Below, in pieces: positions 2,757-5,078 of a DNA stretch of 64,000 nucleotides. Made by a program: the position numbers and the translations under genes. The notes below the pieces were generated by a model. It was not told where the DNA came from, ran no database searches, and worked only from the letters and a program-made list of their open reading frames with translations. The stretch comes from Sinorhizobium terangae (GTDB lineage Bacteria; Pseudomonadota; Alphaproteobacteria; Rhizobiales; Rhizobiaceae), in assembly GCF_009601505.1 (NCBI RefSeq), contig NZ_WITC01000032.1, forward strand, positions 1 to 64,000, written 5' to 3'. Every line of letters begins with the position of its first letter. The first letter of the stretch is position 1.

Positions 2757-4025
2757 TCAACCACGCGCCTCGAGGATTGACGCTTCGAGAATCTCGAGCG
2801 CTTCCGCGAAGACTTCGTCCTGGATGGTGATCGGCGCCAGGAAGCGGATGACGTTGCCGTGGACGCCGCAGGTCAAAAGGATCAGGCCCTTTTCCAAAGC
2901 AATGAGGCGGACCTTGTTGGCGAACTCGGCGCTTGGCAGATTGGTTTTCACGTCGTTGAATTCGACCGCGTTCATGAAGCCCGGGCCCCGGATGTCGACG
3001 ATCTCGGGCGCCTTTTCGCGGATTGCGGCGAGGCGCTGCTTCAGGCGGTTGCCGAGCTGGTTCGCGCGATCGCAGAGCCTCTCCTCCTTGATGACATCGA
3101 GAACGGCATGGGCGGCGGCGATGCCGAGCGGGTTGCCGCCGTAGGTGCCGCCGAGGCCGCCAGGTCCTGGCGCGTCCATGATTTCGGCGCGGCCGGTGAC
3201 CGCGGCAAGCGGGAAGCCACCGGCAAGGCTCTTTGCCATCGTCATCAGATCGGGCGCGACGTCATGGTGCTCCATCGCGAAGAGCTTGCCGGTGCGGGCG
3301 AAGCCGGTCTGGACCTCATCGGCGATCAGCAGGATGCCGTGCTGGTCGCAGATTTCGCGCAGCGCCTTCATGAAGGCGGTCGGGGCCGGGTAGAAGCCGC
3401 CTTCGCCCTGAACCGGCTCGACGATGATCGCAGCCACGCGGCCCGGATCGACATCGGCGGCAAAAAGCTTCTTCAGTGCGGCAAGCGACTGTTCGACGCT
3501 GACGCCGTGGAGCTCGATCGGGAAGGGGGCATGGAAGACGTCGGCCGGCATCGCGCCGAAGCCGACCTTGTAGGGCACGACCTTGCCGGTGAGCGCCATG
3601 CCCATGAAAGTGCGGCCATGGAAGCCGCCGCCGAACGCGACGATCGCCTGGCGGCCCGTTGCGGCGCGGGCGATCTTGACCGCGTTTTCGACGGCTTCGG
3701 CGCCGGTCGTGACGAAGATCGTCTTCTTCGCGAAGTTGCCGGGCGTGATCGCGTTCAGGCGCTCGGCGAGATGGACATAATTCTCGTAGGGCACGACCTG
3801 GTGGCAGGTGTGGGTGAAGCGATCGAGCTGTTCCTTGACCGCCGCGATCACCTTGGGGTGGCGGTGACCGGTGTTGACGACCGCGATGCCTGCGGCGAAA
3901 TCGATGTAGCGGTTGCCCTCCTTGTCCCAGATCTCGGCATTTTCTGCGCGGTCGGCGTAGATCTGCGTGGTCATTCCGACGCCACGGGAAATGGCTGCAT
4001 TCTTGCGATCGGTGAGGCTGGTCAT
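2757..4025 (-). CDS. gabT: 4-aminobutyrate aminotransferase (PLP class III)
   Basis: Transfers the amino group of GABA to 2-oxoglutarate, giving succinic semialdehyde for the GabD product. The open frame extends upstream to 4574, but similarity begins at MTSLTDRKN; the ATG at 4025 follows an AGGA ribosome site and gives 422 residues, close to the E. coli GabT length. Class III aminotransferase features are present: TTGAEAVENA at 106-115, FGGGFHGRT at 131-139, DEVQTGFARTG starting at D236, and the cofactor lysine in MTMAKSLAGG (K265). It is divergent from the MerR/XRE/cupin regulator at 4254, with about 230 bp between starts. Confidence 0.92.
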   Translation of the reverse strand: MTSLTDRKNAAISRGVGMTTQIYADRAENAEIWDKEGNRYIDFAAGIAVVNTGHRHPKVIAAVKEQLDRFTHTCHQVVPYENYVHLAERLNAITPGNFAKKTIFVTTGAEAVENAVKIARAATGRQAIVAFGGGFHGRTFMGMALTGKVVPYKVGFGAMPADVFHAPFPIELHGVSVEQSLAALKKLFAADVDPGRVAAIIVEPVQGEGGFYPAPTAFMKALREICDQHGILLIADEVQTGFARTGKLFAMEHHDVAPDLMTMAKSLAGGFPLAAVTGRAEIMDAPGPGGLGGTYGGNPLGIAAAHAVLDVIKEERLCDRANQLGNRLKQRLAAIREKAPEIVDIRGPGFMNAVEFNDVKTNLPSAEFANKVRLIALEKGLILLTCGVHGNVIRFLAPITIQDEVFAEALEILEASILEARG

Positions 4026-4253
4026 CGTCGTCGTCCTGTTTACGAGGAGGGAATATATTGCATTTTTTCTGCAATTTTTCTCCGGAAGTGGTACATCTTT
4101 TCGGATGGATTGCAAATCAAATTTGGTGATCGAGACAACACCGCCACTGATGGGCGCTTCTTGTGAATCGACGAGCGCGGCGGCTAGATTGCCGGCGACA
4201 CCGATAGCTTGGAATCGCCTGGGACACCGATGCCAGAAAGAGGAAATGGATCG

Positions 4254-5078
4254 ATGAGCGGAGCCGGCACTATACGCTACAAGGTTGCCGAAGCGGCAAG
4301 GCTGGCCGGCGTTTCGGCGTCCACGCTCAGGCTGTGGGAAACGCAAGGGCTGGTGGTGCCGGAGCGCTCGGCCACGGGGCATCGGCAATATACCGATGCA
4401 GATCTCGCCCGCCTGAAGCGCATTTCCTGGTTTCGTGCCGAGCGCGGCCTGAACCCGGCCGCCATTCGCGAGGCTTTGGAGGCCGAGGACCCAAACGACG
4501 ACACCAGTCCGGCTGCATCGTCGGAGAGCAATCCTGACCTCCAGGTCGGCCGAAAGTTGCGGAGCCTGAGGCACGCCGCGGGCAAGACGCTCGAGCAGGT
4601 GGCAAGCGATGTCGGCATCGTAGCATCCGTCCTTTCGACCTTGGAACGCACCTCACAGGGCGTCTCCGTCGCAGTTCTTCATAATCTCGCAGAATATTTC
4701 GGCACGACCGTTTCCAGCCTTTCCGGCGAGGAAGAGCCTGAGGTGCGGGCGCTCGTCAGGGCCGGTGAATGGCGCAACTGGCCGCGCACGACGCCAGGGG
4801 TGACCGTGCAATTGCTCGCGGAAGGCAAGAACCAGATGGACTGCCATCGTTTTGTGCTGGCGCCGGGAGCCTCAAGCGAGGGTGCATACCGGCACGATGG
4901 CGAGGAGTTCGTTTATGTCCTCTCCGGTCGTGTCGAATTCATATTGGACTCCGATCAGTTCTACGATCTTCATCCGGGCGACTCGCTCTATTTCGAGAGC
5001 CGCCGACGGCATGCCTGGTCCAATCGTCACGACGGCGAGACCGTTCTGCTGTGGGTCAATACGCCGCCGACATTCTAG
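4254..5078 (+). CDS. MerR-XRE-cupin three-domain transcriptional regulator
   Basis: A 274-residue protein with three recognisable modules. Residues about 7-75 form a MerR winged helix (KVAEAARLAGVSASTLRLWE). Residues 97-156 form an XRE helix-turn-helix (LEQVASDVGIVASVLSTLE). Residues about 195-270 form a small cupin barrel (RHDGEEFVYVLSG, HPGDSLYFES, H253). XRE-cupin regulators of the PuuR/SutR type are well known; an added N-terminal MerR domain gives two different DNA-binding domains in one chain. The start at 4254 follows AGAGGA with good spacing, which excludes the longer start at 4209. Divergence from gabT suggests control of gabTD, with the cupin sensing GABA or a related amine; that is inference. 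Confidence 0.8.
   Translation: MSGAGTIRYKVAEAARLAGVSASTLRLWETQGLVVPERSATGHRQYTDADLARLKRISWFRAERGLNPAAIREALEAEDPNDDTSPAASSESNPDLQVGRKLRSLRHAAGKTLEQVASDVGIVASVLSTLERTSQGVSVAVLHNLAEYFGTTVSSLSGEEEPEVRALVRAGEWRNWPRTTPGVTVQLLAEGKNQMDCHRFVLAPGASSEGAYRHDGEEFVYVLSGRVEFILDSDQFYDLHPGDSLYFESRRRHAWSNRHDGETVLLWVNTPPTF

Follow-up and report, generated by a model that had tools for sequence, protein, structure and literature searches.

Regulators that join an XRE helix-turn-helix (HTH) to a cupin domain are described for Pseudomonas, in the part of the source available, as local repressors with palindromic sites (PMC7901475). The regulator considered here resembles PuuR, ErfA, PauR and PsdR, as they appear in that text, in having an XRE domain followed by a cupin, in an apparently local action beside a metabolic operon and in a palindromic site, and it differs from them in its MerR head, none being described for those four in the same part of the source (PMC7901475). 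By name, it would share the control of gabTD with the MocR/GabR proteins of the B. subtilis type, the PucR-type regulators and the sigma54-type GabR, judging from the sections available (PMC5320631, PMC7652997 and PMC4279683). Unlike it, these belong to different protein families, and none of their domains is detected in the regulator at E 0.001; the GntR winged HTH with an aminotransferase-like domain, which is the MocR/GabR build, was likewise not found in it with Pfam at that threshold. In R. leguminosarum, the genes named gabDTR (RHL3680-2) are upregulated approximately 80-, 65- and 7-fold in pea bacteroids, with no such rise in bean bacteroids, according to the available excerpt (PMC6421345), and a title cited there as Prell 2002 states that gabT is induced by GABA. 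With TnrA, GlnR and MtaN, the regulator shares the sequence and the fold of the winged HTH; unlike them, it continues after a variable linker into an XRE-cupin half. A dyad with a 7-bp centre is common to the putative site of this regulator and to the sites of the winged HTH proteins of the TnrA, GlnR and MtaN type.

The window, a stretch of 64,000 nucleotides from Sinorhizobium terangae, carries the gene of this gabR-like regulator on the plus strand (4254-5078; 274 aa, ATG start), divergent from gabT-gabD. A first-pass annotation had placed a MerR domain at residues 7-75, an XRE domain at 97-156 and a cupin at 195-270 of a single chain, and the Pfam ranges agree with this to within a few residues. 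Each of the three domains scores above its curated cut-off on the 274-aa chain, namely a MerR winged HTH at residues 9-77 (4278-4484; PF13411 MerR_1, E 1.1e-21), an XRE HTH at residues 97-153 (4542-4712; PF13560 HTH_31, E 8.7e-15) and a cupin, presumed to be the sensor, at residues 199-268 (4848-5057; PF07883 Cupin_2, E 8.5e-20), all encoded on the plus strand. The XRE domain followed by a C-terminal cupin corresponds to the XRE-cupin build, and the XRE is not the sole DNA-binding domain, with MerR_1 at residues 9-77; the presence of the MerR winged HTH is seen with Pfam as well as by fold match. The presence of two HTH domains of different families together with a cupin in one chain is thus supported. 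The XRE-cupin half aligns with the PuuR equivalog model NF007408 over its whole length, with a score (53.2 bits) below the cut-off of 211. Within the cupin, residues H214, E217 and H253 are invariant in the 13 rows of alignment A2, and E218 is conserved in at least 90% of them. No second full-length copy of the regulator was found in its own genome at E 0.01. Plasmid records that carry annotation label the regulator 'MerR family transcriptional regulator', and its nearest match in plasmid records comes from Sinorhizobium terangae (99.3% protein identity).

The proximity of the regulator to gabTD, also put forward in the first-pass annotation, is borne out in the window and beyond. The neighbouring genes on the minus strand pass the NCBIfam cut-offs for gabT, encoding 4-aminobutyrate--2-oxoglutarate transaminase (2757-4025; NF005692, 873 bits, cut-off 724), and for gabD, encoding succinate-semialdehyde dehydrogenase (1158-2633; TIGR01780, 680 bits, cut-off 646). 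Directly downstream of gabD, two overlapping minus-strand frames (16-985) resemble, by eye, a two-frame insertion-sequence transposase. A scan of named genomes yielded 64 regulator loci with proteins 71-97% identical, from records titled Ensifer/Sinorhizobium, Rhizobium, Pararhizobium, Shinella or 'Rhizobiales bacterium', and gabT and gabD lie divergent beside the regulator in all 64, with partial matches in three of them (L047, L065 and L071). Among these relatives, the acyltransferase that lies downstream in the window is kept within the flank in 20/64, and fba is found in 28/64. More diverged relatives also adjoin gabT, on two Agrobacterium plasmids (53-59% identical) and in two genomes that belong to a different family of the class (L147 and L148). 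At L069, a scanned locus from R. leguminosarum, a three-domain protein (75% identical) is encoded next to gabD-gabT, and the dyad has one mismatch. Judged by gene place and name, the regulator is probably the gabR of the R. leguminosarum gabDTR genes.

The three domains are under strong constraint. Among 31 orthologues, they show a mean pairwise identity of 84-90% versus 28% for the variable linker that joins the MerR and XRE parts (residues 78-96; 4485-4541, plus strand). The dN/dS ratios are 0.049 for the MerR, 0.59 for the linker, 0.099 for the XRE and 0.093 for the cupin, with 17 to 208 of the 465 pairs saturated at synonymous sites and many saturated pairs in the linker. Purifying selection therefore acts on the MerR, XRE and cupin domains, the MerR being the most constrained of the three. 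A vestigial MerR domain was considered and is ruled out by the selection acting on it (dN/dS 0.049). The alignments took 39/65, 50/65 and, for the intergenics, 35/65 of the sequences, and 31/65 for dN/dS.

The predicted folds have a low mean confidence (AF2, 57.1 for the full chain and 52.6 for the XRE-cupin half), within which the MerR blocks reach approximately 84-88 and the XRE core of the XRE-cupin half 75-90. The MerR model superposes on TnrA and GlnR chains with a TM-score by target of 0.73-0.80 (rmsd 1.4-2.0 over 66-78 columns), and on MtaN, TnrA and GlnR chains taken together with an rmsd of 1.4-3.2; ranks 1-13 of the fold search were CarH and NmlR chains, which superpose badly (rmsd of at least 9.7). 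For the XRE-cupin half, the best E-value was obtained with the XRE-cupin regulator 1y9q (9.8e-11), but with a TM-score of 0.38-0.39 and an rmsd of 14.3. The profile match of 1y9q covers residues 90-256 (E 1.9e-12) and is weak with the narrower alignment A3, and the cupin part alone superposes on 6b8w with a TM-score by target of 0.70 (rmsd 3.1). A variable linker is found where the MerR family has its dimerisation helix, and the low-confidence full-chain model has no helix at residues 78-93. TnrA/GlnR-type members of the MerR family are not known to have a long C-terminal dimerisation helix. Structure prediction had been proposed in the first-pass annotation as a way of exposing a segment that is not an HTH, and neither of the two segments was shown by these low-confidence models to be anything other than an HTH.

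The intergenic region between gabT and the regulator contains a conserved palindrome. A 17-bp dyad pattern, YTRCATTTTTTCTGYAR, occurs with up to two mismatches in all 83 of the gabT-regulator intergenics counted, 81 of which have at most one mismatch and 57 an exact match, compared with a mean of 0.06 in shuffled intergenics. The 83 consist of the window, the 64 loci and 18 more with an adjacent gabT, and many of these loci are close relatives of one another; seven three-domain loci without an adjacent gabT (L088, L089, L149, L151, L161, L164 and L165) were examined separately. The dyad has TTGCA/TGCAA or CTACA/TGTAG as its arms and a 7-bp core rich in T, as seen in an alignment of 35 of 65 intergenics. 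In the window, dyad A (TTGCATTTTTTCTGCAA; 4058-4074, plus strand) is the putative operator and the sole exact match in its own genome, and a degenerate dyad B position (4091-4107, plus strand) has five mismatches; the same position is exact in Shinella, where two dyad copies lie 33 bp apart. Judged by dyad and synteny, a local palindromic site thus appears to be present beside the metabolic target, as in the XRE-cupin regulators described above. In L150 (7700-8523), the MerR and XRE-cupin parts are separated by a linker frameshift, which could be either a natural fission or a sequence error, and both dyads are still exact.

The exact dyad is also largely specific to the regulator gene at the level of whole genomes. 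The own genome (7.08 Mb) contains one exact dyad and 11 further matches, all with two mismatches, where a backward control gave three. Across 199 genomes of the family, 26 exact dyads were found in 20 genomes, of which 25, judged from their coordinates, directly precede a regulator gene and one lies inside a clpA-like open reading frame (by eye). An exact dyad is present in 19 of the 32 genomes with the regulator versus one of the 167 without it, in which the search covered exact dyads (Fisher p 4e-17, uncorrected for relatedness; G796, which is frameshifted, and the distant G841 count among the 32, and the XRE-cupin-only G769 and G863 do not). Ten of the 13 regulator genomes devoid of an exact dyad have a dyad with one mismatch at the regulator locus, and no dyad was found near the regulator in three of the 32 (G841, G842 and G912); the regulator of G841 is a distant relative (38%). 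The shuffles and the genome survey rule out a chance dyad. It could still be argued that another protein uses the dyad and that the regulator acts elsewhere, given that binding of the regulator to the dyad is deduced from sequence, but exact dyads are almost confined to regulator genomes and to the regulator locus within them, which makes this reading very improbable.

Two of the genomes without a dyad near the regulator, G842 and G912, belong to one genus (g552), and their regulator genes neither adjoin gabT nor have a dyad upstream (best six mismatches). In both, TTGCA-N7-TGCAA lies upstream of a gabT located elsewhere in the genome, with two mismatches to the full pattern in G912 and four, or three on the other strand, in G842. 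The same genus is represented by the loci L205 and L206, where gabTD is apart from the three-domain regulator and gabT has a diverged dyad upstream. In G912, this gabT adjoins a repC gene. The gabT of g552 is 79-80% identical, while comparably similar regulators (71-76%) elsewhere adjoin an 86-89% identical gabT, so the g552 gene may be of another lineage than the gabT usually linked to so similar a regulator. This arrangement, seen in one genus only, would be expected of a dyad that belongs functionally to gabT and is accessible in trans.

Many Rhizobiaceae have the three-domain build, which also occurs in two genomes from a different family of the class, in more distant genomes and on one plasmid of Arthrobacter. 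Full-length matches of the regulator occur in at least 32 of 199 family genomes and at least 8 of 398 phylum genomes, both being lower bounds with at most 12 and at most 6 candidates scored per genome, respectively; no match was found in the viral contigs scanned. The first-pass annotation had regarded a MerR domain in front as unusual, a description that suits its rarity in the wide samples but not its conservation across many Rhizobiaceae. A tree built on the XRE-cupin part places 32 proteobacterial three-domain rows, which were collected using three-domain queries, in a single group (support 97/90), and the 28 two-domain rows fall outside it. The tree does not place the Arthrobacter row, and a split in which the three-domain rows have one origin has a support of 76/70 and is present in 77% of bootstrap trees. 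The tree was built without L092-L099 and omits 22 rows, mostly second cuts of places already kept and including one own-genome paralogue with a 25-residue frame; 11 regulator-bearing genomes (G417, G475, G611, G662, G754, G812, G853, G880, G897, G903 and G921) have no row in it. L105 was grouped with the two-domain rows although its match starts at residue 16, and L150 is labelled three-domain and represented by its XRE-cupin frame alone.

Distant three-domain proteins are found in other settings, namely L088 (44%), L151, L149, L161 and the Arthrobacter plasmid (34%). L149 and L161 have the same three-domain front as the regulator (35-39% identical) and, unlike it, a full C-terminal Pro_racemase domain fused on in a single frame of 629-631 aa, in genomes of different orders. 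The regulator, for its part, has a dyad upstream, which was not found upstream of these fusions (best 5-6 mismatches). The upstream regions of both fusions (L161, also L081, and L149:7347-9233) have TTGACTCGTTCAA in common, and the neighbours of L149 are, by eye, amino-acid transport and catabolic genes. In L088, from S. meliloti MABNR56, a gabD with 60% identity lies approximately 3 kb from the relative, with a reverse-transcriptase-like open reading frame in between (by eye). Ahead of this gabD is a match of 29 residues to the end of gabT, and the region is perhaps a broken gab locus. In L151, the relative (38%) and a pair of genes that look hydantoinase/oxoprolinase-like by eye are divergently oriented. 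Since no dyad was found upstream of five distant three-domain relatives (L088, L089, L149, L151 and L161; best 5-7 mismatches), the operator is not common to the whole architecture.

The dyad is frequently accompanied by a second element. In the window, element C (TTGCAA; 4110-4115, plus strand) lies 2 nt after the B position. Among the 83 loci, TTGCAA with at most one mismatch is found within 5 nt after a dyad in 46, at 2-3 nt in all of these and at 2 nt in 45, against a mean of 4.1 and a maximum of 7 in the shuffled control; counting any of three set offsets, including the one after the degenerate B position, it is present in 71/83. The shuffled control refers to the count of 46. TTGCAA is missing in 12 of the 83 loci, and a composite operator is therefore not universal. 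DNA looping or a composite operator had been suggested in the first-pass annotation. The conserved elements are contiguous within approximately 60 bp and the exact dyad occurs once in the genome, which sets aside looping between distant sites. A composite operator in the gabT-regulator intergenic region is plausible because the conserved dyad carries TTGCAA at set offsets. With regard to the promoter, a consensus scan found none in 3990-4280 and no conserved -35 element was seen. A possible -10 of gabT, TATATT (4052-4057, minus strand), directly abuts the gabT-side end of dyad A. In MerR systems the dyad sits within an overlong -35/-10 spacer of the promoter, and by analogy TATATT would put dyad A in such a position.

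Which of the two heads reads the dyad bears on how this operator would work. It is possible, if rather unlikely, that a single HTH contacts DNA, with the MerR pair on the dyad and the XRE serving the cupin half in dimerisation and signal relay. The MerR is the most constrained domain (dN/dS 0.049), TnrA and GlnR are among the matches of both its profile and its model, and the dyad is the sole element present in all 83 loci; the XRE is conserved too (dN/dS 0.099), and the second element is found in 71/83 loci, both of which speak against this reading. TnrA and GlnR sites are 5-7-5 dyads with an AT-rich core. The regulator dyad has a similar 5-7-5 layout, an analogy that may favour the MerR. Additional evidence comes from MerR-less XRE-cupin relatives, of which four sets with 17 loci were inspected, the start codon being taken as the first possible one. 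The f3 set (L112, L115, L118, L120 and L121, five loci close to one another) has ATTTTCA-N6-TGAAAAT in an invariant block, and no common dyad was found in the other three sets (12 loci). The f3 dyad fits a different reader, or may just mean a different specificity. It also weighs, with its other arms and spacing in 5/5 loci of that one set, against an ordinary PuuR/ErfA-like XRE-cupin repressor whose XRE pair reads the dyad while the MerR is accessory, for instance contacting RNA polymerase or flanking DNA. That the XRE-cupin half can be aligned over its full length with 1y9q and, below the cut-off, with the model of PuuR is in keeping with such a repressor, as is the binding of palindromes by local XRE-cupin repressors in the available text of PMC7901475, but the MerR is the best conserved part of the protein, and we consider this arrangement quite unlikely. 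Variation in the dyad is uninformative on which head reads it, because the recognition helices are nearly invariant among orthologues.

From its sequence, the regulator is best read as an uncharacterised variant that acts like an XRE-cupin local regulator and has a second DNA-binding head. It is likely to be dedicated to the local control of GABA catabolism in Rhizobiaceae, binding a composite operator and switched by a ligand via its cupin. The XRE-cupin half would very likely hold the dimer together, flexible linkers would carry the two MerR heads, and the dimer would thereby offer four HTHs to the DNA. Its composite operator would lie in the promoter region shared by gabT and the regulator gene, consisting of the 17-bp dyad (TTGCA or CTACA arms, 7-bp T-rich core) and the TTGCAA two bases past a dyad position. 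Without inducer, gabTD and perhaps the regulator gene too would be repressed, and a pathway molecule seated in the cupin, either GABA or succinic semialdehyde, would lead either to derepression or to a switch of the MerR heads to activation. A bolder version, which we hold to be unlikely, is a four-headed dimer that merges both families, in which the MerR pair on a dyad between the promoter elements would activate by distorting the DNA, the XRE pair on TTGCAA or a second dyad would repress, and one cupin ligand would switch between them. If this were true, the cupin ligand would toggle the promoter from repression to active opening and back.

Among the matches listed in the open-licence literature, no title or abstract opening concerned a MerR-XRE-cupin regulator. 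The three-domain family extends to other catabolic settings, including fusions with a proline-racemase domain, and its build permits a direct look at two HTH families sharing one operator, with the conserved dyad as a ready target for testing the regulator. GABA breakdown is strongly on in pea bacteroids and not in bean, according to the available excerpt of PMC6421345, and the regulator is the obvious candidate for the switch. Root-nodule bacteria and their close relatives carry, beside their GABA-breakdown genes, a two-headed regulator with a presumed small-molecule pocket, paired with a short DNA site seldom found in the rest of the genome.
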